Source of the DNA: a virus
Direction: 5' to 3' (one strand)
Virus record (IMG/VR): IMGVR_UViG_3300030116_000960
Span: 1 to 23,209 of that record
DNA length: 23,209 nt
The notes below the pieces were generated by a model. It had not been told where the DNA came from, made no database searches, and worked only from the letters and a program-made list of their open reading frames with translations. Both the position numbers and the translations under genes were made by a program. Shown here piece by piece: positions 583 through 22,947 of this stretch; position 1 is the stretch's first letter, and each line of letters opens with the position of its first letter.

Positions 583-1880
583 TAGAAGTTAGTAGAAAAG
601 ATATAATTCATGAGAATCTGATGTCTTATCAGGAGACGGCTAGATTTATAAAATTACCAATAGATGGCTATATGGATTTATTGGGAATCACACCAAACTC
701 ATCACAAAATGCAATTATCAATGCAATCAATAACCCTAAATATCGTTTCGTATGTGCCGCTGTTTCTAGAAGGCAGGGCAAAACTTACATAGCAAATATT
801 ATAGGTCAGTTAGTCACTTTAGTACCAAATTGTAATGTTCTACTAATGTCACCTAACTACTCACTATCTCAAATATCATTTGATTTACAAAGACAACTAA
901 TTAAACATTTTGAACTAGAAGTAATAAGAGATAATGCAAAAGATAAAGTTATTGAACTAAGTAATCATTCTACTATTCGTATGGGGTCAATCAATCAAGT
1001 AGACTCTGTTGTTGGTAGAAGTTATGATTTAATTATATTTGATGAGGCAGCGCTAGTTGATGGTCGAGATGCATTTAATGTCGCACTTCGTCCTACACTA
1101 GATAAAGAAAATTCAAAGGCATTATTTATTTCTACTCCTCGTGGTAGAAACAACTGGTTTGCAGAGTTTTGGAATAGAGGTTTCTCAGGAGAATATCCAG
1201 AGTGGTGTTCTGTTAGAGCAACTTATCATGAAAATCCTCGTATATCAGAAGTAGATATCCAAGAGGCTAGAAAAACAATGTCTGAAGCAGAATTTAACCA
1301 AGAGTATATGGCTGACTTCAATGTATTTGAAGGACAAGTCTGGGCATTTAATCATCAGGAATGTGTAGCAGATTTATCAGAACTAGAAACACATAGAATG
1401 GACATATTTGCAGGAATGGACGTAGGTTATAAAGACCCTACCGCTTTCTGTGTTATAGGATATGACTGGGAAAGAGAACGATTCTATTTACTAGATGAAT
1501 ATTTAAATAGCGAAAGAACAACTGAGCAACACGCAATGGAAATAAGAAAACTTATAGATAAATGGAATATAGATTACATTTACATTGACTCTGCAGCTCA
1601 ACAAACAAGATTCGATTTTGCACAAAATTATGATATTACTACTATTAATGCAAAGAAATCTGTACTAGATGGCATTGGTCATGTAGCTGGTATTGTAGAT
1701 AATGATAAGTTAATTGTTCATCAATCCTGTAATGAGTCCATATCAAGTTTAGACCAATATCAATGGGATCCAAACCCTAATTTAATGAAAGAAAAACCTA
1801 AACACAACTATGCATCTCACATGGCAGATGCGATTCGATATGCACTCTACTCGTTTGAAACAAATGCCACTACCTTTTGA
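579..1880 (+). CDS. terL: Terminase large subunit (packaging ATPase and nuclease)
   Basis: This is the motor that pumps DNA through the portal and cuts the concatemer. The N-terminal ATPase has a terminase-type Walker A, SRRQGKT (residues 63-69), Walker B DLIIFDEA (150-157) and a coupling motif STPRGR (185-190). The C-terminal RNase H-like nuclease shows three expected acidic positions: D281 in GMDVGYKDPTAF, D337 in YIDSAAQQTR and D417 in HMADAIRYAL. At 433 aa it is of normal, slightly compact size. The start is uncertain: TTG at 579 overlaps the upstream stop, while ATG at 621 (residue 15, MSYQETARF) also fits; neither has a clear ribosome binding site. The family call is strong; the headful or cos mode cannot be read from it. 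Confidence 0.95.
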   Translation: MIEVSRKDIIHENLMSYQETARFIKLPIDGYMDLLGITPNSSQNAIINAINNPKYRFVCAAVSRRQGKTYIANIIGQLVTLVPNCNVLLMSPNYSLSQISFDLQRQLIKHFELEVIRDNAKDKVIELSNHSTIRMGSINQVDSVVGRSYDLIIFDEAALVDGRDAFNVALRPTLDKENSKALFISTPRGRNNWFAEFWNRGFSGEYPEWCSVRATYHENPRISEVDIQEARKTMSEAEFNQEYMADFNVFEGQVWAFNHQECVADLSELETHRMDIFAGMDVGYKDPTAFCVIGYDWERERFYLLDEYLNSERTTEQHAMEIRKLIDKWNIDYIYIDSAAQQTRFDFAQNYDITTINAKKSVLDGIGHVAGIVDNDKLIVHQSCNESISSLDQYQWDPNPNLMKEKPKHNYASHMADAIRYALYSFETNATTF

Positions 1881-1902
1881 TTACTCCTTGAAAAAATAGT
1901 TC

Positions 1903-1931
1903 TTGACATGAGCTATAAAATTTGTTAAAAT
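1903..1931 (+). promoter_or_regulatory. Strong sigma70-type promoter with extended -10
   Basis: TTGACA (1903-1908) is followed by exactly 17 nt and TAAAAT (1926-1931). A TG at 1923-1924 one base upstream of the -10 makes it an extended -10 element. Five of six -10 bases and all six -35 bases match consensus. It lies in the longest intergenic gap (1881-1951), so transcription would start near 1938, leaving a leader of about 14 nt before the HNH gene. It would drive the HNH protein, portal and following head genes. Confidence 0.75.
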
Positions 1932-1951
1932 TCTAATATACAAGTAGGTTT

Positions 1952-2323
1952 ATGACTTTAAAAAGAGATTTAGTTAAGTATGTTCGTGACAAGGCCAAGT
2001 CGAAATATAAGAAAGACACGCATTGTTACATCTGTGGAAGTACGGAGAATCTGGACTTTCATCACTTTTACGGATTAACTGAGTTATTAGAATCGTGGTT
2101 TAAAGAAAACGACATCACGATAAAAACTGAAGATGAAATATTAGAACTTCGTGAAACATTTATAGAAGAAAACGAAGAAAAAGTTTATAAACAAGCTGTT
2201 ACATTATGTCATATGCATCACCGAAAACTGCATAACATATACGGAAAAAGACCCAAGTTAATAACAGCGCAAAAACAACAAAACTGGGTCGAGATACAAA
2301 GGAAGAAATATGGCATGGTATGA
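1952..2323 (+). CDS. HNH endonuclease between terminase and portal
   Basis: A 123-aa zinc-stabilised beta-beta-alpha-metal nuclease. The visible motif is CYIC (C25, C28), then LDFHHFYG with the catalytic HH pair (H37, H38), and later LCHMHHRKLH carrying C86, H89/H90 and H94. The N-terminus is basic. A helical, Glu-rich stretch (about 45-80) separates the two halves. HNH proteins next to terminase genes are known to cooperate with the large terminase in cos cleavage in HK97-like phages. The 14-nt overlap with the portal start shows it is built into the head operon, though a free-standing homing nuclease origin cannot be excluded. It is the first gene after the promoter at 1903-1931. Confidence 0.85.
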   Translation: MTLKRDLVKYVRDKAKSKYKKDTHCYICGSTENLDFHHFYGLTELLESWFKENDITIKTEDEILELRETFIEENEEKVYKQAVTLCHMHHRKLHNIYGKRPKLITAQKQQNWVEIQRKKYGMV

Positions 2324-3515
2324 TTTTTTATTAGGCAGGACAGAAAAAGAAAATCCCGCCCAATATGTGATAGCGAGAGAAGAAGGGCTCACGATAGATA
2401 GTCGTGAGAATGTTCTCAACTATAGAAATGCATACGAAACATTAGAAATAGTAAACAGAGCAGTCAATATGATAGTAGATGACGCTTCTGAGATACCATT
2501 TGATGTAGGTGAAAAAATACAAGGTATTACACCAATTAAAAAAGAACTACGAAGAACAAGGGTAGATTTATTACTAAATAAAGAACCTAATCCTTTTCAA
2601 GATGTAAGCACATTTAAAAGAAATCTTTTAATAGACTTAATGATTGATGGGAATATCTTTGTTTATTTTGATGGTGCACATCTGTACCATCTTCCAGCAG
2701 ACCATATGACTATCTACAGTGATGATAATACTTATGTAGAGAAGTACACATATGACCACTCAATAGATTACAAACCGTCAGAAATTATTCACATAAAAGA
2801 AAACAGTTTTAACTCCATTTATAGAGGAGTACCAAGACTGAAACCAGCTCTAAGAACTATGCAGTTACTGTCTAGTATGAGAAAGTTTCAGGATAACTTC
2901 TTTAAAAATGGGGCAATACCAGGATTGGTATTGAAATCACCAAACACTCTTTCAGAGAAAATTAAAGAAAGAATGTTACAGGCATGGGTTGCTAGGTACA
3001 ACCCTCAGTCTGGAGGTAGAAGACCATTATTTTTAGATGGTGGTCTAGAGGTTGAAGACTTAACAGAAATTAACTTTAAGGAATTAGACTTTCAAGAAGG
3101 CATCGCCTCAAATGAAAAGATAATACTTAAAGCTTTAGGTGTTCCACCAATTTTGATGGATAGCGGTAACAACGCAAACTTGAGACCAAACCATCGATTA
3201 TATTACTTAGAAACCATACTACCTATTATAAATAAAATAGCGTATGCTTTCGAGAGATACTTCGGTTTCAAACTTGATGAAGATGTAACAGGTATTCCTG
3301 CTTTACAACCAGAGTTAAGAGACCAAGCAAGTTACTATGCTACTCTTGTAAATACAGGAATTATGACACCGAATGAAGCGAGGGAGGCATTAAGACTTGA
3401 ACAAATTGAAGGGTTTGATACACCAAGAGTTCCTGCAAATATCGCAGGTTCAGCCTCAAATCCAGAGGAAGGCGGTAGACCACAAGAGTCATCGCCAAGC
3501 GAGGAAGAAGAATGA
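2310..3515 (+). CDS. HK97-family portal protein
   Basis: Forms the dodecameric ring at one capsid vertex through which DNA enters and leaves and to which the neck attaches. The 401-aa protein has typical HK97-type portal features in order: an N-terminal stretch MAWYDFLLGR, the central NFFKNGAIPGLVLKSP segment (about 196-211), the KALGVPPILM motif, the YYLETILPII helix and a late TGIMTPNEAREALRLE segment. The C-terminus is a disordered Ser/Glu-rich tail. AGGA at 2300-2303 lies 6 nt before the ATG, supporting this start inside the HNH gene. The stop overlaps the next ATG (ATGA). Confidence 0.93.
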   Translation: MAWYDFLLGRTEKENPAQYVIAREEGLTIDSRENVLNYRNAYETLEIVNRAVNMIVDDASEIPFDVGEKIQGITPIKKELRRTRVDLLLNKEPNPFQDVSTFKRNLLIDLMIDGNIFVYFDGAHLYHLPADHMTIYSDDNTYVEKYTYDHSIDYKPSEIIHIKENSFNSIYRGVPRLKPALRTMQLLSSMRKFQDNFFKNGAIPGLVLKSPNTLSEKIKERMLQAWVARYNPQSGGRRPLFLDGGLEVEDLTEINFKELDFQEGIASNEKIILKALGVPPILMDSGNNANLRPNHRLYYLETILPIINKIAYAFERYFGFKLDEDVTGIPALQPELRDQASYYATLVNTGIMTPNEAREALRLEQIEGFDTPRVPANIAGSASNPEEGGRPQESSPSEEEE

Positions 3516-3769
3516 CAAAAGATATGATGATAAAGGCTTTATCCGAGTTCATTGCCAGCAAAGGCGTTGAAACTATGGATTTAAAGACTTACAAAAGTTT
3601 TGGCAACGAAGTACCTGTTAAGGACTATCTTTTAAAAAGATACTGGGGTTCCTGGAATAGAGTACTAGGAGTTGTTAGAAAAAGATATCCTGTCTCGGTA
3701 GCACCTGCTCCTGCACCTAAAGTGGAGAAGAAGGTTGTTAAGAAAGAGGTAAAAGATGTCAAAGAGTAA
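3512..3769 (+). CDS. Small head-operon protein with a homing-endonuclease-repeat-like segment
   Basis: An 85-aa protein of unknown role. Residues about 7-55 end in a KRYWGSWNRVL motif that resembles the end of the homing endonuclease associated repeat (rFGSWn.AL), a small DNA-binding unit usually found beside nuclease domains. Then comes an Ala/Pro hinge (APAPAPK) and a Lys/Val/Glu-rich tail. No nuclease domain is present. GAGGA at 3501-3505 sits 6 nt upstream of the ATG; the start overlaps the portal stop and the end overlaps the protease-capsid start by 14 nt. DNA binding is inference; a minor head protein is the alternative. Confidence 0.72.
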   Translation: MTKDMMIKALSEFIASKGVETMDLKTYKSFGNEVPVKDYLLKRYWGSWNRVLGVVRKRYPVSVAPAPAPKVEKKVVKKEVKDVKE

Positions 3770-5813
3770 CGAAAAGATATATCACTGGACGAGTACTTTT
3801 AAATCTTTAGGCGAAACTGATGATGGTGGCGTAAACATCAAAGGTTCTGCAAGTACAAATGCACTAGATAGAGCTGGAGATATAATTAATCCAGAGGCAT
3901 GGACAAAGGGCGGATTGGAAAACTATAAAGGTAATCCAATTATTCTCTTTAACCATGACTATAATAAGCCTATCGGTAGAGCAACAGATTTAGCGGTTAC
4001 TGATAAAGGTTTGGACATATCTGCAAAGATATCAAAAGCCGCAGGTGATATAACCCAATTAGTTAAAGATGGAGTCCTTGGAGCATTTTCCGTAGGTTTT
4101 AGATGCAAGGATTCTGAATATATGACTGAAACCGACGGATATAAAATAAAGGACGCGGAACTATTTGAAGTTTCCGTAGTATCAGTGCCTTGTAACCAGA
4201 ACGCAACTTTTGGTTTAGCAAAGTCATTTGATAGTATGGACGACTACAGAAAGTACCAAAGTGAATTTTTAAAGGCTAACTCAGTTGAATCAGCAGACGC
4301 TGTTAAAATTGAGCAGCCAAGCGAGGAGAAATCCTCATCAACGGAGACTGATATGTCAGAAGAAAAAAATTCTCCTGAAACTTCATTCGACCTTGAAGCA
4401 TTTGCAAAAGATGTAGCAGAAAAAACTGCAACAACTATCGCTATGAAGCAAGCCGAACAGAAAGCAGCAGACCAAAAAGCAGAAGCTGAAGCCGCTGAGA
4501 AAGCAGCAGAAGTTGAAGCTCAAGAGAAGGCTGTTCAAGAAGCAAAACAGGACGAACAAAAAGCAGTTATCGAAGCAGGACTATCAGGCGCTGAGAGATT
4601 GATGAATGATGTAGAAACTCGAGTCAATGAAAAGCATGAAGACTTAAAACAAGTTGTTGATTCATTAGAGAAACAACTTGCTGAGAAATCAGAAGAAATC
4701 ATGAATATCAGAGAGTCAAAAAGAGTTTTTGCAGACAGACAAGGTCAAGGCGACTGGAAGAAAGCTTTCGAAAACGATATCATTGATGCCAAATTTGCTG
4801 GTTTAGCTACCGGTAAAGGCTGGAACAGTGATTATGCAAAAGGTCTAATGGAAAAAGTTAATGCCCATTCAGGTGTTGGCGTTTCTTCAGCAGACTTTGA
4901 GCAGATTGTTTCAACAAACATCGAAAGAGATATTCAGAACGAATTAGTATTAGCACCTCTATTTAGAGAAATACCAATGACTTCTGCTAACATGATTATC
5001 CCAATATTACCAGATAGTGGTTATGCCGAATTTACAGGTAACCAAACTGCTACAGGTTCATCTCCTCATGGTAACTTAGCCGAGAGAGGTGACACTTATG
5101 GTTCTCCATATGGTGGTGTTGATTTAACTGAAAGAACTCTTTCAACCAAAAAACTCATTTCACAATCATACTTAGGTAATGAAACTGAAGAAGATGCAAT
5201 TATGCCAATCTTGCCTCTCATCAGAGAGTCAATGGTAAGATCTCACGCTAGAGCAATTGAAAATGCGATTCTAGCAGGTGATGACGCTGACGGTGCTTTC
5301 GGTACTGGCGGTGCAGCTTTTGAAGGTCTTTTACACTTAGCTAGAAATGACAGTGATTATACACAGTCATCAACAGCTTTTGCATCAGATACAGTTACAG
5401 CAGCTGAGTTACTTTCAATGAGAAAGAATATGGGTAAATATGGTGTTAATCCATCAGAAGTGGTTTACATCGTATCTCAAAGAACATACTTTGAGTTGCT
5501 AGAAGACGCTGAGTTCCAAGATGCTAACCTAGTTGGCGACATGGCTACTAAGCTAAATGGTGAAATCGGACAGGTATTCGGTTCAAGAGTACTATTATGT
5601 GACGAGTTCGCTACTCCAGCAGTAAGTAAGTTTGCAGCTATCGCTGTTTACCCAAGAAACTATGTAATTCCAAGATTAAGAGGAGTTACAATCGAGTCAG
5701 ACTACGAAGTAGCTAATCAAAGAAGAGTCCTAGTGGCTTCTCAAAGATTAGGATTCATCGACTTAATTGACGGTGCAACTTCTAAGTGGGGACACATGTA
5801 CAAAGCTTCCTAA
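3756..5813 (+). CDS. Prohead protease - scaffold (delta) - major capsid protein fusion
   Basis: One 685-aa frame holds three functions usually encoded separately. Residues about 1-160 are an HK97-type prohead protease (peptidase U35/S78 group) with H67 in LFNHDYNKPIG, S112 in GAFSVGF and the LFEVSVVSVP strand (E138). Residues 160-200 are a Ser/Glu-rich linker. Residues about 205-320 are an Ala/Glu/Lys/Gln-rich coiled coil, matching the scaffold-like delta domain that is removed in maturation. Residues about 325-685 are the HK97-fold shell protein, ending with FIDLIDGATSKWGHMYK. GAGG at 3746-3749 lies 6 nt before the ATG. An in-frame ATG at codon 200 also has a good ribosome binding site. A hairpin follows the stop. 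Confidence 0.93.
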   Translation: MSKSNEKIYHWTSTFKSLGETDDGGVNIKGSASTNALDRAGDIINPEAWTKGGLENYKGNPIILFNHDYNKPIGRATDLAVTDKGLDISAKISKAAGDITQLVKDGVLGAFSVGFRCKDSEYMTETDGYKIKDAELFEVSVVSVPCNQNATFGLAKSFDSMDDYRKYQSEFLKANSVESADAVKIEQPSEEKSSSTETDMSEEKNSPETSFDLEAFAKDVAEKTATTIAMKQAEQKAADQKAEAEAAEKAAEVEAQEKAVQEAKQDEQKAVIEAGLSGAERLMNDVETRVNEKHEDLKQVVDSLEKQLAEKSEEIMNIRESKRVFADRQGQGDWKKAFENDIIDAKFAGLATGKGWNSDYAKGLMEKVNAHSGVGVSSADFEQIVSTNIERDIQNELVLAPLFREIPMTSANMIIPILPDSGYAEFTGNQTATGSSPHGNLAERGDTYGSPYGGVDLTERTLSTKKLISQSYLGNETEEDAIMPILPLIRESMVRSHARAIENAILAGDDADGAFGTGGAAFEGLLHLARNDSDYTQSSTAFASDTVTAAELLSMRKNMGKYGVNPSEVVYIVSQRTYFELLEDAEFQDANLVGDMATKLNGEIGQVFGSRVLLCDEFATPAVSKFAAIAVYPRNYVIPRLRGVTIESDYEVANQRRVLVASQRLGFIDLIDGATSKWGHMYKAS
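4343..4355 (+). promoter_or_regulatory. Internal ribosome binding site and ATG inside the protease-capsid fusion
   Basis: GGAG (4343-4346), a 6-nt spacer and ATG (4353-4355) lie in the frame of the fusion gene, at codon 200, exactly in the linker between the protease and the delta coiled coil. Motif and spacing equal those of the clear annotated starts here (2310, 3512, 3756, 8450, 9768). Initiation here would give a 486-aa delta plus capsid product (4353-5813) without protease, close to a free-standing HK97 capsid precursor in layout. Use of this start is inferred. Confidence 0.6.
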
Positions 5814-5829
5814 TAGCTTTACAGGTTTT

Positions 5830-5858
5830 TGGTGGTTTACCTATAAACCACCACTTTT
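5830..5858 (+). terminator. Hairpin terminator or attenuator after the capsid gene
   Basis: A perfect 10-bp stem (5830-5839 pairing with 5844-5853, arm TGGTGGTTTA) encloses a 4-nt loop (CCTA), followed by C and four T. It occupies most of the 51-nt gap after the capsid stop. The T-run is short, so partial termination or 3'-end protection of the capsid message is more likely than full termination. Confidence 0.65.
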
Positions 5859-5864
5859 AAGATT

Positions 5865-6461
5865 ATGGCAGATTTAATAACAGTAGTACAATATAAAGAC
5901 GCAGAGGGTCTCCGTGGTGAGAAGGACGACGACCGTCTTAATGTAATAGTACCACAAGTCTCTGACTTAGTAAAAAAATACTGTGGCATATCTTTTGTAG
6001 ACTTTTATAGTACAGATAAAGTTGAAACTTTTTCAGTCGATGATAACTATACTACCACCATAATAGTGAGTGAAAGTCCGTTAGTCGAAGTGAGTAAAGT
6101 AGAAGAAAGGGCAAGTTACTCTGGAAGTTATGTAGAATTAACTACAGGTAACTATGAATACTATGTAGACTTAGAGTCTGATGCTATTATAAGAACAAAT
6201 TCACAGGGTAAACCGATTGCATATAAGCAAGGAGTTGGAGCTGTAAAAATAACATATAAGGCAGGATATTCTGAAACACCAGATGATTTAAAATTAGCAC
6301 TTTTTGATTTAGTTAATTATTATATAAAAGATGAACATAAAGAAAGAAGAACACTTGGTGGAGCAACTATAAATAACCAAGGAACTGCAGGATTAAGACA
6401 GTCCACAGACTTTCCAGACCACATCAAAAGGGTACTGGATTTATATAGAGTTGTTATATAA
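5865..6461 (+). CDS. Head-tail connector (gp6-like adaptor)
   Basis: Expected to form the ring bound below the portal. The 198-aa protein has the connector pattern: an N-terminal helical part (about 1-42), a central beta-rich region with SESPLVEVSKVE (about 70-81), a strand KITYKAGYSETPDDLK (about 128-143) and a C-terminal amphipathic helix LALFDLVNYYIKDEHKER. The phrase of YKAGY followed by P-DLK and a helix ending in basic residues is characteristic of the HK97 gp6-like and related adaptor families. No strong ribosome binding site is seen. The position just after the capsid gene supports the call. The stop shares a base with the next ATG. Confidence 0.8.
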   Translation: MADLITVVQYKDAEGLRGEKDDDRLNVIVPQVSDLVKKYCGISFVDFYSTDKVETFSVDDNYTTTIIVSESPLVEVSKVEERASYSGSYVELTTGNYEYYVDLESDAIIRTNSQGKPIAYKQGVGAVKITYKAGYSETPDDLKLALFDLVNYYIKDEHKERRTLGGATINNQGTAGLRQSTDFPDHIKRVLDLYRVVI

Positions 6462-8449: not shown

Positions 8450-9715
8450 ATGGCATTTTTCTTTAGTAGAGATACCAAAGTGTTTATGAAATGGGCTTAT
8501 GATTCCAACAATACAGCTTTATACGAGCTACCAGTATTAGACGGATACTCATTTTCTCAAGCAACAAACACATCTGAGGTTACTTTAAGTGAAGCAGCTA
8601 ACTCTTCTGGATATAGTAAAAGAGGTAGAGCAATGTTTACTGACTCTTTTGCACCAGCAGAATGGAGTTTTAGTACTTACATAAGACCTACAACATCTGA
8701 CTCAGGTAATGCAGCAGCGTCAAATCAACATGCTGGAGCCAGTAAGAAGTTTGCAGTAGAAGGCCCACTATGGGCAGCTATGTCAGCAAATACTTATGAT
8801 AACGCTATTGCAGGTTCAGGTGGAGGTAAAGTCTTTGATAGTGCCGCAGCAACTTATGAGCCAAATGTATTTGATTTTCAAAACTCAAATCAGGTGGCAC
8901 TCGGAGTTTTTGATTTATTCTTCGTGTTAGGAGCAGCAAAAGATTCAACTACAGGTTTATATGAAACAGGACAAGATGGAGTAACCGTCTACAAACTAGC
9001 AAACTGCTCAGTTGGTTCTGCTTCAATAGATTTTGATATTGAAGGTATTGCTCAAGTAGCATGGAGTGGTCAAGGACAAACAATTGAAGAAGCAGCAGCA
9101 TTAAACACTGGTACTTCAGCAACTAATGACTCAAACTCTCAATCAGTAGCGGCAGAAACAACCGACGGATTGATTAACGAAGGAATTAGTTCAACCTCTA
9201 ACTATGTTAGAAATAAATTAACAGACCTAGCAATTGTGTATGACCACGCAAATACGTCTGGTACTAAAGGACTATTAGGTTCTAGTAATACTACTTACTC
9301 TGTTACATTAACAGGTGGTAACATTACAATAGAAAATAATCTTACTTACTTGACACCAGAAACACTAGGTTCAGTAAACCTTCCATTAGGTCATGTAATG
9401 GGAACAAGGTCAGTATCAGGTAACTTTACCTGCTATTTAAATGACACAAGTGAAGGCTCACTTCAATTATTTGAAGACCTTCAAGAATCAAGAGGTGTTA
9501 TCACTAATGCATTTGATTTAACATTTGGAATTGGCGGTAGCGCATCTACTCCAAGATTAAATGTTGAAGTAGCAAAAGCTCACCTCGAGTTGCCTAGCCA
9601 CAGTATTGAAGATGTAATATCTGTAGATGTAGCCTTCCATGGCTTACCAAAAGATTTATCTTCAGGTACAAAAGCAGACGCAACAAACGAAATAAAATTA
9701 ACTTATACATCATAA
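8450..9715 (+). CDS. Major tail tube protein
   Basis: The 421-aa subunit that stacks into the tail tube. It is beta-rich and rich in Ser, Thr, Ala and Gly, with the stretch GRAMFTDSFAPAEWSFSTYI (about 59-78), which is typical of tube proteins in this kind of phage, and a late TFGIGGSASTPRLNVEVAKA region. AGGAG (8439-8443) six nt before ATG is among the best ribosome binding sites here, as expected for a highly expressed protein. It has its own spacing from the upstream gene (13 nt) and is followed by a GC-rich hairpin. At 421 aa it is longer than the lambda tube protein, so extra surface domains are likely. Confidence 0.8.
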   Translation: MAFFFSRDTKVFMKWAYDSNNTALYELPVLDGYSFSQATNTSEVTLSEAANSSGYSKRGRAMFTDSFAPAEWSFSTYIRPTTSDSGNAAASNQHAGASKKFAVEGPLWAAMSANTYDNAIAGSGGGKVFDSAAATYEPNVFDFQNSNQVALGVFDLFFVLGAAKDSTTGLYETGQDGVTVYKLANCSVGSASIDFDIEGIAQVAWSGQGQTIEEAAALNTGTSATNDSNSQSVAAETTDGLINEGISSTSNYVRNKLTDLAIVYDHANTSGTKGLLGSSNTTYSVTLTGGNITIENNLTYLTPETLGSVNLPLGHVMGTRSVSGNFTCYLNDTSEGSLQLFEDLQESRGVITNAFDLTFGIGGSASTPRLNVEVAKAHLELPSHSIEDVISVDVAFHGLPKDLSSGTKADATNEIKLTYTS

Positions 9716-9767: not shown

Positions 9768-10202
9768 ATGACAGAAGAAGTAAAAAAACAACCAGTATCG
9801 CTTAAGAGTCTTTTGACTCCAAGCAAAACAGTATCAATAGATTATCCTGGGTATGATGGCTTTGTTGTTGACTTAACATATTTAAGTAGAGAAGAATTAC
9901 TTAAACTTAGAAATAGATGTGTTAAACAAGTTTTAAATAAAAAGACTCGTGCTTTTGAAGATAAACTTGACGAAGATTTATTTATGGTAGAATATGTAGC
10001 AGCAATTCTAAAGGGGTGGAAAGGCTTAAAATTCAAATACTTAGAAGAGTTTCTATTGGTAGATGTAAGTGGACAAAACCCTGAAGACGAATTAGCTTTT
10101 AACTCTGAAAACGCAGAGTTGCTAATGAGAAATTCAGCAGATTTTGACCAATGGGTAACAGATACTGTAGGAGACCTGGAAAATTTTACACAGAGCAAGT
10201 AG
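9768..10202 (+). CDS. Tail assembly chaperone, short form (lambda G-like)
   Basis: A 144-aa protein between tube and tape measure, the fixed place of the tail assembly chaperones that hold the tape measure for tube polymerisation. It is acidic and mostly helical: an N-terminal segment with SLKSLLTPSKTVSIDY, then LTYLSREELLKLRNRC (helix about 37-52), and a VEYVAAILKGWKGLKF helix. AGGA at 9758-9761, 6 nt before ATG, supports the start. The last codons overlap the next frame, and a slippery heptamer at 10181-10187 joins the two, giving a predicted 271-aa long form (140 residues of this frame plus 131 of the next). It is not itself part of the mature virion in lambda. Confidence 0.85.
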   Translation: MTEEVKKQPVSLKSLLTPSKTVSIDYPGYDGFVVDLTYLSREELLKLRNRCVKQVLNKKTRAFEDKLDEDLFMVEYVAAILKGWKGLKFKYLEEFLLVDVSGQNPEDELAFNSENAELLMRNSADFDQWVTDTVGDLENFTQSK

Positions 10203-10582
10203 AACAAATACTTGCGCTGATTAAAAGGAATTTCAAAGATACAGGCATAGATATTAACAAGTATCTAGCTCTATGTGAACAACTCGGTGAAGAACCAGAC
10301 CCAGAAAAGATGCCCGTAGAAAGGGCTACTTTTCCATTAGAGGTACAAGAAGCATATGTGCTTCATGATTTTTTAGCTGAGAGATGGGACGGAGCTAGTG
10401 GTTATTACCTCGGTAAAGATTACTCTGCTTTAGACACTTACATAAAACATTTAGAAATAACAGACGCAAAAACAAGTCTATGGTTTTTAAAGCATATTGA
10501 ATATCACAATATGCAAATGATTAACGAAAAAGTTAAAAGACAGAGAGAAGCGGAAAAACGCAAGGTAAAAATTAAGAAGTAA
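10151..10582 (+). CDS. Tail assembly chaperone, frameshift extension (lambda T-like)
   Basis: This frame is -1 relative to the preceding gene and is open from 10148, after a TGA at 10145-10147. An ATG at 10151 exists, but its first residues (MGNRYCRRPG) are out-of-frame copies of the upstream gene's coding sequence. Translation is therefore expected to enter by -1 slippage at 10181-10187, so the real T part begins with Y at 10187 (YTEQVEQILALIKRNF). It contributes 131 residues. The T part is helical and ends in a basic tail KRQREAEKRKVKIKK. In lambda the T domain of GT binds the tape measure and recruits tube subunits; the following gene here is the tape measure, overlapping by TAATG. Confidence 0.8.
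   Translation: MGNRYCRRPGKFYTEQVEQILALIKRNFKDTGIDINKYLALCEQLGEEPDPEKMPVERATFPLEVQEAYVLHDFLAERWDGASGYYLGKDYSALDTYIKHLEITDAKTSLWFLKHIEYHNMQMINEKVKRQREAEKRKVKIKK
10181..10215 (+). promoter_or_regulatory. Programmed -1 ribosomal frameshift site
   Basis: The heptamer A AAT TTT (10181-10187) sits in the correct phase of the upstream frame (gaA AAT TTT aca), fitting X XXY YYZ. After a 7-nt spacer (10188-10194) a perfect 7-bp stem follows: GCAAGTA (10195-10201) with TACTTGC (10209-10215) around a 7-nt loop. The stop of the zero frame (TAG, 10200-10202) lies 12 nt after the heptamer. The shift direction (-1) matches the frame relation of the two genes. No pseudoknot partner was found for the loop. 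Confidence 0.85.
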
Positions 10583-16385: not shown

Positions 16386-17077
16386 CTAGAAACATTTATT
16401 TAAAAGGAAGAATGGGTAAACTATTCGGAGAACATCATAGATTAAACTGCAAGACAGTTCAAGAAGCTATGCATGCAATAGATGTAATGAAAGGCGGTCT
16501 TCGACAATATCTCATAGATTGCACTGAAAATGGAGTAGGATTTACAGTTCAAAAAGGAGAAGAATTTTTAACCAATCAAACAGCAGGAATTGAACTAGGC
16601 AAAGATGATATAATTATTACTCCAATCCCACAAGGGTCAGGTTTAAGTGATATTGGAAAAATAATTTTAGGAGTAATATTAATTGTTGTTGGTTTAACAG
16701 TAGACCCTACTGGAAAAACAGCAGAAGCAGGATTACAACTATTAGTAACTATAGGTACACAATTAGCTCTTGCTGGTATTATAGGACTTACCTCAGACGA
16801 CCCCGAAGAATTAGAGGAAGAACAATCAACTTTATTTAATGGGCCAACCAATACTACAAAGTCAGGTATACCAGTACCTCTTTGTTATGGAAAAATGGAA
16901 GTTGGTGGGGCTGTTGTAAATTTTGGTTTTACAGATTACAGAATAACAGGAAATCAAGGCTATACTTTTGTAAGTAAAGGAACTCGTAGCGGTTCAGGTT
17001 CTGGAGGCGGCGGAGGCGGTGGCGGAAGCGCTGGTGGCGGTGATTCAGATTGGATGCAGGAGATAATGCAAGAATAA
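16382..17077 (+). CDS. Tail assembly protein, lambda I-like
   Basis: A 231-aa protein of the lambda gpI family. The N-terminal ubiquitin-like part has IYLKGRMGKLFGEHHRLNC and a TVQEAMHAIDVM helix, and closes with DDIIITPIPQGSG (about 75-87). A hydrophobic region with two candidate membrane segments follows (about 91-107 and 120-136). Then comes an acidic stretch and TTKSGIPVPLCYGKMEVGG, which is a typical I-family motif. Near the C-terminus a Gly/Ser run (about 202-223) is encoded by an unusually GC-rich stretch (about 16989-17041) and ends in DSDWMQEIMQE. It is needed for tail-tip assembly in lambda, with K and J on either side. Confidence 0.85.
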   Translation: MTRNIYLKGRMGKLFGEHHRLNCKTVQEAMHAIDVMKGGLRQYLIDCTENGVGFTVQKGEEFLTNQTAGIELGKDDIIITPIPQGSGLSDIGKIILGVILIVVGLTVDPTGKTAEAGLQLLVTIGTQLALAGIIGLTSDDPEELEEEQSTLFNGPTNTTKSGIPVPLCYGKMEVGGAVVNFGFTDYRITGNQGYTFVSKGTRSGSGSGGGGGGGGSAGGGDSDWMQEIMQE

Positions 17078-20000
17078 TGAGTACAGCACAAGGAAACAAT
17101 AGAGGTAGCGCACCGTTAGATTCGCAAGGAGTAAAAGCAGTCTCAAAAGTTCGTGCGCAAACTGCTGTTATTTATGATTTACTATCCGAAGGTCCGATTG
17201 AAGGATTAGTTGATGGTGTTGCAAGTATTAGACTTAATGATAATCCTGTTGCAAATGGTACAAATGCAGCTATTCTTTCTCCTCAAAGGTCATTCGATGC
17301 CAACTATGTACACAGTACAGGTGTAATTACTGATAATTCAACAGGTAATATATTTAGTGGAGCTTCAACAGCAGATGGCACAAGAGAGATAATAGTTCAA
17401 GGAGCAAGTAAAAGAACTACATCAACTATAACTACTGTTGCAGGTAATAATATAGTTGTATCAAGTAATACAAGTTTCTTTGCTTCAACAGATGTATGGG
17501 ACGGAAGTGGTATTCAACCAATGATTCGTATTGATGGTGCTGGAGACAATGGTGGACAGCTCGTAGCAGGAATCACTGAACACATAAACAATGCCGCAGT
17601 AAGAGTAGACCTTACTCCTATGACAAGTATATCAGGAACAAATGCTTATTTAGATTTAAAAGATACTATCGACAGTTTTAGCGGAAATACTGCAACAATA
17701 TCAGCCGCTGGAGTTACTGTTGCAAATACTGGAATACAAATGAGTAGTCCATTTAGGGCTTCAAATGCCGCTCCTCTATATAATTATGAAAATTTTGGAT
17801 TTGCATTTAGAACAGGTACTCGTGAACAAGCATATTTACCAACACCTTCAGGTATAGGTAGCGCATCAGTTGCTCACCAAGTTAGTGGAGGTAATATAAG
17901 CACTTCATCTAGTTCAGGATATCCTTCGGCAAGTGCTTTTGGTTTTGAAGAAACATCTTCTTATACAGGAAGCGCACTACAAGTAACATCAGCTTCTATG
18001 GGAGTAGGTAATGCTTCAGAAATAGACGCAGTAAAAATAACTTTACAATTTAATAGTATGATTTCCCAAAAAGAAACAGGGAAATTAGGAAATGGTTTTG
18101 CAGAATATAGAATTAAATTTGGATATTCTAGAGATGGCGGAAGTACTTATCAAGATGTAACAAAAGTAGGTAGACCAACAATCGCTACTAGTACATCAAG
18201 TTATCATAAAAATGGAAGAACAAAAGATTCACAAAGTGGTATTATAACAGGCAAAACTCGACAACCTTTCAATCATGTTTATACTTTTGATATAAGTAAG
18301 TATCAACCTTTTGATGCTTATAGAATTAGTGTTGAAAGAATATCTGCAGAAAATCAAAAAGAAAATAAATGGCAACAGACTAATACGGGTACTGTAAAAC
18401 AAATTGAAAACATTATTACTGATAAATTAACTTATCCTTATTCTGCCTATGCTGGTGTAGTAGTAGACGCAAAAGATTTTAATGCAATTCCAAAAAGAAG
18501 TTATGAAATTCGTGGACTAAAAGTAAAAGTTCCCACAAACTATTTCCCACTTGATGAAGCAAATACAGCAACAGGAGTTAGACGAAGTACAGCAGCATAT
18601 ACTAGAAATGTAACTTCAGGAGCAGAAGAAGCCTCAGTACAAGACTGGGACGGTAATTTTAGAGGCGACCAAAAAACATTTACAAGCCCTACTCATGCAA
18701 ATTATGAACCTGTATACACAAATAATCCTATTTGGATATTCTATGACTTACTGACTAATCAAAGATACGGATTAGGTAAATACCTCGATGAAGATTTTGA
18801 TTTTTCACAAATAGATAAATATACATTATTTCAATTAGCAAAATATTGTGATGAATTAGTCCCTGATGGAAAAGGTGGAACAGAGCCTAGATTTACTACT
18901 AATTTATACATACCTAAAGACCAAGACGCACTAAAAATACTAAAGAACTTAGCTTCACAATTAAGAGCAATGGTAATATGGTTTAATGGTCAAGTTACTC
19001 TTGGAATGAATCAACAAAAGGGTGCAATATATACTTTCTCCAAATCAAATGTAATAGGAGGAGAGTTTGCTTATGCAGGTAGTGCAGGAAGATTTAGAAA
19101 CAATCAAATAGCAGTATCTTGGAACGACCCAGATAACGGATATAAACAAGCAGTAGAAGTTGTAGAAGACCACGACAATATTGCAAGAACAGGTAAAGTT
19201 AGAAGAAAAAATATTACTGCATATGGTTGTACTTCACAGGGTCAAGCAATAAGACATGGTAAATATCAATTACTATCCGAACAGCTTGAAAAAGAAGTAG
19301 TAAATTTTAAAACAGGATTAAACGCACTAGGATTAAAACCAGGTGATGTAATAAAAGTTCAAGACGGTGATTTACAAGATATTGTTACAAGTGGTCGTGT
19401 TACTACTTCAGCTTCTTCTACAACTACAATTATACGAACTGATAGAGATTTAACTTCTTTCCTAAATAATGACGATAACTTTAAATTACATTTAATATAT
19501 CCAAGTGGTGGAGCTTATCTAGCACAACCTATTGCTACTATTAACTCAGTAACATATAATTCTGGAGATTTAATACTTCTTGATGAAGATGGAGCAGCTA
19601 TTGATACCCAAGCAAAAGCTTCTAACTTAAAAGATGATAGTGGAGCAGTTGTTCAAACTTTTTGGTCAGATGACCTTAGAATTGAAACTAAAGCAATAAG
19701 CTCTTTTAATGCTACATCTGTAACAGTATCAAGTGCATTTAGTTCAGCTCCGAATGGAGAAGTAATATATACTATTTCTGGAGAGACTGATGACAATGTT
19801 ATAAAACCAGGAACATTCAAAGAATATATAATTACAAGTATAAAACACGAAGACGATATGACTGTGGGTGTTAGTGCAGCAGCTTATGAAAGAGCAAAGT
19901 TTGACGCAGTAGATAGAGGGTGGAAAGTACCTGCATATCCAGATACTTTATATAAACCACCAGCAAGAGGAGATGAAGTACCAGCACCAATAGGACTAAC

Positions 20001-22947
20001 AGCACAATTAGTACCAGGAAACTCTGCAGGTGGACATAATGTAGGAGAGGGAGATAATGAAAATGATTATTCTATCGTTTTAAATTGGACACACCCTACT
20101 ACTCAAAGAACAGATTCAGATGGTAACTCTCTAACTGATGTTTATGAACATCTACTTGGTTATAATATACAACATAATATAGAAGGAATAAATGATGATA
20201 GGGACGCTAACAGAGAGTTTACAACTGTATTTTTAGATTCGAATAATAAATCAAATTATGTATTTAATAATATTGTACCATCTTCATACAAATTTAGAGT
20301 TCAAACCGTAGCAACAAACGGTAAGACTTCAGGTTGGGTACAAAGAACTTTAGAATTTCCTGACAGTGCTTATGCAATATTTGGTCAAGGGTCTATACCA
20401 GCAGGTATGAATCATTATATACAAAAAGGTGGTATATTAACAACTGTTGTTGATGTCAATTCTACTGATGGTACTTGTACTTTTGCTAATAATACTTATG
20501 TATTTACTCCACCTAATAGTGTCTCTCCTATAACAGTTTCAAATGGTAACACAGCACAAACTGTTCAAGGAGACTTTGAAGAACTAGCAAATGGAAGCAA
20601 AGGATTTTTACTATATGACTATAGTAATACAGCTAACCCTCTAAAAGCAATATCTCTAGTTACAGATACAGCTGCAGTAGATGCTGCTACAAATGGAAAA
20701 TTAAACTATCAATTTATGGCAAGAATTGGAGAGTCTAATAATGATTTGATTCAAGCTACCGGAACAGTATCAGTAACAGCAGGATTACCAGAAGTAACAG
20801 GTAGTAGTACAACTTTTACTAGTGACTTTACAGAAGGCGACATAATAGCAATCGATACTGCAGGAGCTACTAGATTTATGGGGAGAGTTATTGAAGTTGC
20901 AAATAATACTCATCTTGTTATGGATAGTAGTCCAACAAGAGCTTACAGTGGTAAAACTGTTCACAAACAAGGATTAATTTTTGACCATTTAAAAGATAGT
21001 ATTATTGGAGAAGTAGCAAACAACGCAGGAACATTTACATATACTGCATTTACAAATAAACTAAAAATTGATAACTCTGGTGAGATAGCAGACAATACTG
21101 TTAATGCATCAATTATAGCAAACAATGCAATAGGAGCTATACACATATCAGCTAATTCAATCGGAGCAGCAGCTATTGTAGCAGATTCTATAGACAATTC
21201 TCACATAGCAGCAAACTCAATAAATGCGGCATCTATAATAGGTGGAAGTATAACAAATGCAGAAATAGCAGGAAATACTATTACAACAGCTAATATACAA
21301 GCAAACGCTATTACTTCATCACAACTTTCAGCAAGTGCAGTAGGTTCAGTAAGTATAAGTGCAAATCAGATTACATCAGTAGAGATTGCAGCAAACAGTA
21401 TAGGTAGTTCAGAAATAGCCGCAAACTCTGTTAATGGTACAATTATAACAGGTAATGCTGTAGGCAGTAGTGAGATATCTGCAAACTCTGTAAATGGTAT
21501 TATCATAGCAGGTGGAGCAGTAGATACTAGTCAAATAGCAGGTAGCGCTATATCAGCAGCTAAACTAGCGGCTGAAGCTGTAACAGAAGAAAAAATTCAA
21601 GATGATGCAGTTTCTAATCCAAAAATAGCAGCGAATGCAGTTGAAACTGTTCAATTAAAATCAAACTCTGTAACAGCAGCAATAATTGTAGCTAATGCTA
21701 TTGGTAGTAGTGAGATAGCAGCGAACGCTATTAATTCAGTTATAGTAGCAGCAAATTCTATAGGCTCAAATCAAATATCAGCAAACTCTATTAATGCAGC
21801 AGCAATATTAGCAGGAACAATTACTAATACACAGATTGCTGGTAATACAATTAATAGTGCAGTTATACAAGCAGGAGCAGTAGATACTAATCAAATAGCA
21901 GGTAATGCAATTACCTCGGCTAAGATAGCAGCAAACGCAGTAGATGTCGCAGAGATAAAAGCAAATGCAATTACCTCGGCTAAGATAGCTGCCAACGCTG
22001 TAGATTCTGCAGAAATTAAATCAGGGTCTATTGATACAGTTCATATTGGAGCAAATCAGATTACATCTGCAAAGATAGCAGCAGGTAATATTGATACAGC
22101 AGAGATAGCAGCAAACGCTATTGAAAATGCTAAAATATCTTCAACAGATTCAATGACTTTGACTGTTGGAGGAGGAAGTGCAGGAGGTTGGGCACTTACA
22201 TCTTCTACATTTGCAAGTACTAATGCGAGTGGAGGAGCAAATGCATCATTTGCTTCAGCAGGTATTACTTTAGGTAGTGGTGGATTTATTTCAGCACCAC
22301 AGTTTTATATTGACACAGATGGAAATGCTAAATTCAAAGGAACACTTGAAGGTAATGATGTAACGGTAAATGGAAATCTTACAATACCAAGCTCAGGGGG
22401 AAGTTCAACAGTATCATTTACTGTAAATGATTTAAATACTAGATTTATATGTTCAGTAGGTTCTGGAGCAGGATTCTATTCAGGATTTATAAAACTTTCA
22501 GGTGGTACAAGTCATGTTAAAACTATGGGATTCTTTTTTATTGAATCTTCAGCAACTTCTGGCACTAGTTCTTCTTTTGATATAGACTTAAGATCAGGTA
22601 GCTCTTTTAATGATACTAAATTACCTCTAGCATCGTCTAGTAGCACTGTTAGAAACCATGCTATATATCCTTCTCCAGAAGCTGTTCCAACTACTAATAA
22701 TGATACCGGAAGTGTTCATGATAGGGACTATGGATTAAGACCTGACCATTTTGACCCACTTGCAGGAGAAGGCGGAGGAGTTGATAGTCAAAATAGATTA
22801 TATTCAGGTCACCAAAGTGCAAATATGCCTTTCATGTTTACATACACAGGAACAGATGATGTAAACTTATTTATGAGGGCACAAGGAGATAGTGGAACAG
22901 ACACTTGCACAGTTGAAGCAAGATTTATAAAATTTGGAGTAAGTTAA
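17077..22947 (+). CDS. Tail tip / host specificity protein, lambda J-like, with decapeptide repeat stalk
   Basis: The central tail-tip protein (1956 aa) that recognises the host. The N-terminus has KVRAQTAVIYDLLSEGPIEG, the hallmark of the gpJ family; further marks are RGLKVKVPTNYFP (about 482-494) and IFYDLLTNQRYGLGKYL (about 552-568). A fibronectin type III domain spans about 968-1095 and a small beta domain about 1237-1300. Residues 1335-1684 are 35 decapeptide repeats. After them come GGWALTSSTFAS and YIDTDGNAKFKGT, usual for fibre-type tails, then a C-terminal domain likely to bind the receptor. I chose the ATG at 17077 because it sits in the I-gene stop (TAATG); the frame also allows TTG at 17050, which would add nine residues and seems less likely. 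Confidence 0.9.
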   Translation: MSTAQGNNRGSAPLDSQGVKAVSKVRAQTAVIYDLLSEGPIEGLVDGVASIRLNDNPVANGTNAAILSPQRSFDANYVHSTGVITDNSTGNIFSGASTADGTREIIVQGASKRTTSTITTVAGNNIVVSSNTSFFASTDVWDGSGIQPMIRIDGAGDNGGQLVAGITEHINNAAVRVDLTPMTSISGTNAYLDLKDTIDSFSGNTATISAAGVTVANTGIQMSSPFRASNAAPLYNYENFGFAFRTGTREQAYLPTPSGIGSASVAHQVSGGNISTSSSSGYPSASAFGFEETSSYTGSALQVTSASMGVGNASEIDAVKITLQFNSMISQKETGKLGNGFAEYRIKFGYSRDGGSTYQDVTKVGRPTIATSTSSYHKNGRTKDSQSGIITGKTRQPFNHVYTFDISKYQPFDAYRISVERISAENQKENKWQQTNTGTVKQIENIITDKLTYPYSAYAGVVVDAKDFNAIPKRSYEIRGLKVKVPTNYFPLDEANTATGVRRSTAAYTRNVTSGAEEASVQDWDGNFRGDQKTFTSPTHANYEPVYTNNPIWIFYDLLTNQRYGLGKYLDEDFDFSQIDKYTLFQLAKYCDELVPDGKGGTEPRFTTNLYIPKDQDALKILKNLASQLRAMVIWFNGQVTLGMNQQKGAIYTFSKSNVIGGEFAYAGSAGRFRNNQIAVSWNDPDNGYKQAVEVVEDHDNIARTGKVRRKNITAYGCTSQGQAIRHGKYQLLSEQLEKEVVNFKTGLNALGLKPGDVIKVQDGDLQDIVTSGRVTTSASSTTTIIRTDRDLTSFLNNDDNFKLHLIYPSGGAYLAQPIATINSVTYNSGDLILLDEDGAAIDTQAKASNLKDDSGAVVQTFWSDDLRIETKAISSFNATSVTVSSAFSSAPNGEVIYTISGETDDNVIKPGTFKEYIITSIKHEDDMTVGVSAAAYERAKFDAVDRGWKVPAYPDTLYKPPARGDEVPAPIGLTAQLVPGNSAGGHNVGEGDNENDYSIVLNWTHPTTQRTDSDGNSLTDVYEHLLGYNIQHNIEGINDDRDANREFTTVFLDSNNKSNYVFNNIVPSSYKFRVQTVATNGKTSGWVQRTLEFPDSAYAIFGQGSIPAGMNHYIQKGGILTTVVDVNSTDGTCTFANNTYVFTPPNSVSPITVSNGNTAQTVQGDFEELANGSKGFLLYDYSNTANPLKAISLVTDTAAVDAATNGKLNYQFMARIGESNNDLIQATGTVSVTAGLPEVTGSSTTFTSDFTEGDIIAIDTAGATRFMGRVIEVANNTHLVMDSSPTRAYSGKTVHKQGLIFDHLKDSIIGEVANNAGTFTYTAFTNKLKIDNSGEIADNTVNASIIANNAIGAIHISANSIGAAAIVADSIDNSHIAANSINAASIIGGSITNAEIAGNTITTANIQANAITSSQLSASAVGSVSISANQITSVEIAANSIGSSEIAANSVNGTIITGNAVGSSEISANSVNGIIIAGGAVDTSQIAGSAISAAKLAAEAVTEEKIQDDAVSNPKIAANAVETVQLKSNSVTAAIIVANAIGSSEIAANAINSVIVAANSIGSNQISANSINAAAILAGTITNTQIAGNTINSAVIQAGAVDTNQIAGNAITSAKIAANAVDVAEIKANAITSAKIAANAVDSAEIKSGSIDTVHIGANQITSAKIAAGNIDTAEIAANAIENAKISSTDSMTLTVGGGSAGGWALTSSTFASTNASGGANASFASAGITLGSGGFISAPQFYIDTDGNAKFKGTLEGNDVTVNGNLTIPSSGGSSTVSFTVNDLNTRFICSVGSGAGFYSGFIKLSGGTSHVKTMGFFFIESSATSGTSSSFDIDLRSGSSFNDTKLPLASSSSTVRNHAIYPSPEAVPTTNNDTGSVHDRDYGLRPDHFDPLAGEGGGVDSQNRLYSGHQSANMPFMFTYTGTDDVNLFMRAQGDSGTDTCTVEARFIKFGVS
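21079..22128 (+). repeat. 35 tandem 30-bp coding repeats (decapeptide stalk of J)
   Basis: The frame reads as 35 consecutive 10-residue units with no insertion or deletion. The consensus is about x-[EKQ]-I-A-A-N-[AS]-[IV]-x-S. Positions 3 and 8 of all units are I, L or V, giving an aliphatic residue every fifth position for 350 residues (J residues 1335-1684). The polarity suggests a beta-solenoid or trimeric fibre stalk. DNA identity between units is partial, so it is an old array with recent local duplications. Confidence 0.9.
21904..21989 (+). repeat. 60-bp offset near-identical duplication inside the J repeats
   Basis: The 26 nt at 21904-21929 recur identically at 21964-21989, exactly two decapeptide units later, and the surrounding protein reads NAITSAKIAANAVD twice. 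Sharing of the same rare codon choices (acctcggc) marks a recent two-unit duplication. Confidence 0.7.

Follow-up and report, generated by a model that had tools for sequence, protein, structure and literature searches.

A probable nested capsid start behind covarying coding hairpins in the fused protease–capsid genes of marine phages

In phage HK97 the prohead protease (gp4) and the major capsid protein (MCP, gp5) are encoded by separate genes, and the delta domain of gp5 acts as a built-in scaffold. Nested in-frame protease/scaffold genes are found in lambda (C/Nu3), Mu (I/Z) and the herpesviruses (UL26/UL26.5), and nested in-frame starts as such are already known. Fused protease–capsid genes have been reported as unusual, and how a one-to-one fusion avoids placing a protease on each shell subunit has been left unexplained. 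Such protease–MCP fusions are described in phages of Arthrobacter, Gordonia and Rhodococcus (PMC5513430), the part of that source drawn on here presenting them as fusions only, with no mention of an internal start.

The window analysed here is the whole 23,209-nucleotide stretch of IMG/VR record IMGVR_UViG_3300030116_000960. Its closest terminase relatives belong to T5-like phages (49%), and its fused protease–MCP protein is likewise closest to T5-like phages, the protease and major head protein pb8 of the Demerecviridae being homologous (37% identity over the match) and identically ordered. In those relatives, however, the two are separate genes with a stop codon and a short, RBS-bearing gap between them, whereas the marine family has one frame. 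The locus also shares with HK97 an S78 protease and an MCP with a delta domain, but again the HK97 genes are separate. A query with the T5-like MCP found no relative in IMG/VR.

The fused gene and its inner start site

The features of the coding region are as follows.

3756..5813, plus strand: fused open reading frame of 685 aa, comprising S78 prohead protease, delta region and HK97/T5-type MCP (PHROG 80/617/10, PF04586, PF05065)
3746..3749, plus strand: GAGG, ribosome-binding site (RBS) 6 nt ahead of the ATG at 3756, where the full-length product starts
4343..4346, plus strand: internal Shine-Dalgarno sequence GGAG, with an RBS in 228/228 and 69/69 distinct homologues
4353..4355, plus strand: internal start codon ATG (Met200), invariant in 228/228 and 69/69 and aligned with Met1 of the T5-like MCP
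4353..5813, plus strand: predicted nested product of 486 aa (685-199), an MCP precursor with the delta region and without the protease

PHROG comparison matched the 3756-5813 frame to families of head-maturation proteases and major head proteins. Peptidase_S78 (PF04586) covers residues 34-161 with 61.9 bits against a curated cut-off of 21, and Phage_capsid (PF05065, HK97-fold MCP) covers residues 407-667 with 39.8 bits against a cut-off of 24.2. Separate cistrons of the HK97/T5 type were found neither in the window nor in any marine locus, all of which keep a single uninterrupted frame across the linker. A preliminary description had located a GGAG-6 nt-ATG unit in frame at codon 200, in the linker between protease and delta region, and both the coordinates and the domain positions bear this out: (4353-3756)/3 is 199, the spacer ACTGAT (4347-4352) is 6 nt long, and the site falls between Peptidase_S78 and the delta/Phage_capsid part. 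The same description gave a 6-nt spacing to all well-formed starts, which is slightly overstated, because this spacing is found for the portal, orf3512, protease, 8450 and 9768 starts, whereas others have 5, 7 or 9 nt or no clear RBS. The anti-Shine-Dalgarno energy of the internal site, -6.6 kcal/mol, is on a par with that of ordinary genes of the window, the real starts of the protease and of the gene at 8450 having -7.2 and -7.3 kcal/mol. No sigma-70 promoter was found on the plus strand before the internal start, where promoter-like matches were fewer than in shuffled sequences.

Several neighbouring features were also observed. A small basic protein of 85 aa (3512-3769), lacking a PHROG match, occupies the interval between portal and protease, its 3' end overlapping the protease start, and an HNH-nuclease-like frame (1952-2323; CxxC and HH motifs seen by eye) is inserted between large terminase and portal. 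Downstream of the capsid gene, and before the following gene, which starts at 5865 and has no recognisable RBS, lies a hairpin at 5827-5856 (GGTGGTTTA-CC-TATAAACCACC) with a T-rich stretch after it, resembling a terminator, processing or coupling element. Upstream of the tape measure gene, the tail assembly chaperone frame 9768-10202 (PHROG 313) overlaps 10151-10582 in a different frame, and the two are probably a programmed frameshift pair. Finally, a tail protein of 1965 aa (17050-22947) has an extended tract of degenerate repeats, with NSIGSSEIAANSI / AITSAKIAANAVD as the type.

Conservation of the start site and the open frame

Homologues were collected through successive scans of viral contigs, seeded with ever more distant members, together with one scan of genome contigs, which returned one locus only. 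The resulting 338 fused loci represent 228 distinct marine ORFs with 60-100% identity. A single reading frame runs across the linker in all 228 (three contain one stop, elsewhere than in the linker), and in every one the Met200 column is ATG, with Ser as the next residue and an RBS preceding the ATG by 6-9 nt. Two further scans, kept as an out-of-sample set, added 69 distinct ORFs (70 with the window), and the ATG together with an RBS at 6-8 nt was present in 69/69. A fusion lacking the ATG or the RBS at the linker, the finding that would have spoken against an internal start, was thus encountered in neither set. In one otherwise intact relative a frame shift lies in the protease part rather than the linker (L473:1237-1240) and is probably an assembly error.

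The RBS is kept while its sequence and the surrounding linker codons drift, as the preliminary description had anticipated. GGAG, AGGAG, AAGGAG and AAGGA forms occur, the 6-9 nt spacing persisting throughout. The codon preceding the RBS glutamate is ATG, ACG, AAG, GAG or CAG, or AGG in two AAGGA forms, so that M, T, K, E, Q or R may be encoded while the final base is always G. NNG-GAG or an equivalent stands at this position in every sequence; gene-wide, GAG accounts for 25.5% of Glu codons and ACG for 3.5% of Thr codons in the homologues. With six different residues before the RBS codon, amino-acid constraint can be rejected as the source of the RBS conservation. Parsimony on a tree built with the element left out assigned about 19 changes to the pre-RBS residue and none to the ATG.

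Among the 17 conserved in-frame Met columns of the homologues, codon 200 is the sole one with 100% Met and 100% RBS, and this RBS-ATG combination is more than chance. The other RBS-like Met column, codon 123 (4122-4124, in the protease domain), has 84% Met with AGGA 10 nt upstream and probably reflects amino-acid constraint (KDSEYM). Since all loci keep the frame open through the linker, where indels come in multiples of three, the fused frame is under selection too.

Coding hairpins and synonymous constraint upstream of the inner start

The preliminary reading of an internal start is supported by these results, and two parts that it had missed were found just upstream: covarying hairpins and a bounded region of synonymous constraint.

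4323..4336, plus strand: RNA hairpin P2, GAGGA-GAAA-TCCTC, separated from the downstream RBS by 6 nt, with compensatory changes; found in 50/50 elements of the test set
4274..4318, plus strand: RNA hairpin P1, pairing GGCU/AGCC (4274-4277/4315-4318), CUCAGUU/AAUUGAG (4280-4286/4307-4313) and CAGC/GCUG (4291-4294/4299-4302)
4372..4375, plus strand: CTCC, tentative 3' arm of a candidate stem P3, whose pairing with GGAG would partly mask the RBS
4263..4376, plus strand: suppressed synonymous change, codons 170-207, from the pairwise profile

P2 is present in every homologue examined, including all 50 distinct elements of the out-of-sample set, its stem ending 13-21 nt before the ATG. An unanchored stem search picked the upstream stem first; the search was then anchored to the ATG distance (range 13-20 nt), and the L063-type element, in which stem and ATG are 21 nt apart, lies just beyond that range. 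The sequence of P2 is highly variable. Linkers of relatives contain, as perfect hairpins, GGGA-GAAA-TCCC, GGGA-GGAA-TCCC, GGC-GAAA-GCC and GGGC-AATA-GCCC, further versions being GAGGAG-AAAAAAG-CTCCTC, ACAGTC-AAACA-GACTGT, GCAGAC-GAAA-GTCTGC and ACAGAC-GTCA-GTCTGT, and the out-of-sample stems include GTGG/CCAC, GAGG/CCTC, ACGG/CCGT and GTGGG-TTCG-CCCAC. The last of these, at the P2 position of one relative (L357, ORF 1001-3043), forms a UUCG loop closed by G-C. In one group of 54 distinct sequences the pair that closes the loop is never broken, being A-U in 32 and C-G in 22, another pair is G-C in 34 and A-U in 7, and the covariation was reached by 0/500 shuffles. In a distant group of ten sequences 60/60 cells are paired, with two compensated pairs, a result reached by 1/500 shuffles. 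Slid registers score far below the P2 alignment. On the element-free tree the stem sequence changes about 24 times and the loop-closing pair about 14 times, with pairing kept; these changes alter the encoded amino acids and are therefore not codon-usage effects. P-values for individual elements from synonymous shuffles are modest singly (mostly 0.005-0.18), and the strength of the P2 evidence resides in the joint test and the covariation rather than in single elements.

Synonymous variation was profiled over the whole ORF with pairwise normalisation in place of per-column synonymous heterozygosity, which is biased by clade sampling. The observed/expected ratio is 0.27-0.56 at codons 170-207, against a gene mean of 1.0 (sd 0.22); this 2-4-fold suppression is limited to these codons, and the 20 lowest 9-codon windows all start at codons 169-199. 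The valley is wider than P2, which led to P1. Most P1-stem codons (174-175, 179-180, 182, 186-188) are almost synonymously fixed while the loop codons are freer, and codons 206-207, in the region of the P3 arm, are fixed as well. An overlapping ORF can be rejected as the source of the constraint, since no alternative frame is open across the homologues.

A compensatory pair in P1 is G-C in 43 sequences and A-U in 5, a covariation reached by 0/500 shuffles, and in the distant group P1 is replaced by other stems (GAGACU/AGUCUC, GAGGCU/AGCCUC, CUGGU..ACCAG). The GGAG/CTCC cells of P3 are paired in 95.7% of cases without covariation, and the distant group has a counterpart in which UCAAGG faces a CCUUGA-type sequence; the P3 stem is plausible but unproven. 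The element in the window (4270-4385) folds with -33.5 kcal/mol (MFE z -4.0). A covariance model built from one group, with the distant group excluded, detected one strong copy per sequence, at the linker, including in a 105-kb contig, and weak matches at the correct site in most of the distant group. Rfam 15 gave no match at gathering score over 3500-6100, the sole sub-threshold hit being ROSE_3 at 4654-4706, outside the element.

The position and the mode of conservation of the element bear on what it may do. Shine-Dalgarno-like sequences and hairpins can stimulate frameshifting, and the structure might in principle promote frameshifting or pausing at the linker instead of initiation. We consider this extremely improbable, given that the hairpins lie upstream and not downstream, alternative frames are not conserved as open and the conserved distance is that from RBS to ATG; a slippery A-run after the ATG was rejected as a frameshift site because it is not conserved. 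It is also very improbable that only the full-length fusion is made and that Met200 and its RBS are relics of an ancestral gene boundary or products of amino-acid constraint. The T5-like relatives do split their genes at this same boundary, with T5 MCP Met1 falling on Met200 in a MAFFT alignment, but a relic would be expected to decay, and instead the ATG, RBS and hairpins have been retained among homologues of 60-100% identity despite many compensatory changes, with the constraint falling on synonymous sites.

Two further explanations accept that the hairpins act on expression. A translational operator, in which binding of a phage protein (the MCP, the protease or another) to P1/P2/P3 would repress internal initiation or set its timing, could account for three stems, including a candidate RBS-masking one, and for synonymous constraint that spans all of them. 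This is nonetheless unlikely, as the free replacement of the P2 loop and stem (GAAA, GGAA, AATA, ATTA, TTCG and loops of 5 to 7 nt) argues against a sequence-specific binder and P3 does not covary. Alternatively, the hairpins could serve primarily mRNA processing or stability: an RNase cut at or above P1/P2 would yield a monocistronic MCP mRNA with a protective 5' hairpin, the inner start being used and cleavage setting the protease:MCP ratio. The T7 gene 10 leader, with its protective 5' hairpin after an RNase cut, offers a parallel. P1 is a long interrupted stem, P2 lies just 5' of the RBS, and the stems keep their structure and position while changing in sequence, as befits a structural rather than sequence-specific signal. 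Conversely, P1, at about 15 pairs, is short for a classical RNase III target and its make-up differs greatly among clades, making a primary processing role decidedly unlikely.

Proposed mechanism and comparison with known nested genes

In combination, the comparisons show the ATG, the RBS, P1/P2 and the fused frame all to be under selection. Two starts on one frame is the most economical reading, and it is highly probable that the linker contains a dedicated internal initiation site that yields an abundant 486-aa MCP next to a minority of full-length protease-MCP; the production of both proteins, their ratio and the function of the hairpins are what we infer. Ribosomes starting at 3756 would make the 685-aa protease-delta-MCP polyprotein, while those loading at the GGAG at 4343 would start at Met200 and make a protease-free delta-MCP of 486 aa, which corresponds to the separate T5 MCP. 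Through the delta and capsid parts common to both products, some full-length chains could co-assemble and carry the protease inside the prohead, most subunits being without it. A need for full-length chains is suggested by the frame never being broken at the linker and by the indels in multiples of three, and a need for the inner start by the retention of its ATG, RBS and upstream structure. P1/P2 are most likely structural insulators, which would prevent base pairing between the RBS and the protease-coding RNA and hold the RBS at a constant distance behind a stem, making the rate of MCP initiation independent of upstream reading. Such a mechanical role is favoured over sequence-specific binding because the P2 loop and stem vary freely while the presence of the hairpin and its distance to the RBS do not. 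P3 might tune or couple MCP initiation; the strength of the RBS is uncertain, as it is partly paired (P3) in the minimum-energy fold. That the three stems form a coding-embedded cis-regulatory RNA, widespread in marine phages with T5-like heads, which actively controls internal MCP initiation and couples protease dosage to capsid assembly, for example by P3 masking and unmasking the RBS or by responding to an assembly protein of the phage, is a rather doubtful extension.

With this arrangement the phage can probably produce plain capsid proteins in large number, alongside a limited number with a protease attached. An internal start that frees the capsid protein would give a concrete, testable answer to the problem of one protease per subunit, in hundreds of marine phage genomes and, it appears, independently in some actinophages. 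It also illustrates that annotated phage ORFs can conceal a second major protein, and it adds a conserved RNA element without an Rfam match. The searchable literature yielded no account of an internal capsid start for protease-MCP fusions, and to our knowledge a nested capsid start in such a fusion, guarded by a pair of covarying coding hairpins, is undescribed.

ES18 and SIO-2 were considered as further carriers of protease-MCP fusions; ES18 has no fused gene in its annotation, and the part of the SIO-2 genome examined did not reveal a fusion. The actinophage fusions are unrelated to the marine family and share no hairpin element with it, bar an isolated hairpin in RRH1. In seven of them (RRH1, GMA5, Rahul, Coeur, McGonagall, GRU3 and Schiebs) an in-frame ATG at the junction is preceded, at 7-9 nt, by AGGAG or AAGGA, which for most is the sole such site mid-gene, and BlueFeather has a weaker junction RBS-ATG. 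No obvious RBS-ATG was seen at the junction in Emperor, SallySpecial, EricDab or Whytu; not every fusion, then, requires an internal start. The actinophage cases are supporting rather than decisive, since in some of these GC-rich phages such sites are fairly likely to arise from codon bias. In gp7 of Rhodococcus phage RRH1 (L344:4439-6424), which matched no Pfam model, a ten-pair hairpin (CGGGTCGAGG-CTTC-CCTCGACCCG) lies just upstream of the internal AAGGA-9 nt-ATG. This hairpin is missing from the Gordonia relatives examined.

We know of no covarying hairpin element described 5' of the inner start in lambda C/Nu3, Mu I/Z or UL26/UL26.5. The preliminary description had likened the locus to lambda C/Nu3 with the shell protein itself as the nested product, and this likeness holds for the gene layout. 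As in lambda, one frame carries two start sites, the inner one in frame and with its own RBS, the C terminus would be common to both products, and a long protease form together with an abundant short form would set the stoichiometry. In lambda, however, the short form is a scaffold and the capsid protein is separate, whereas the predicted short product of the marine fusion contains the Phage_capsid domain and would itself be the capsid protein, delta region included.
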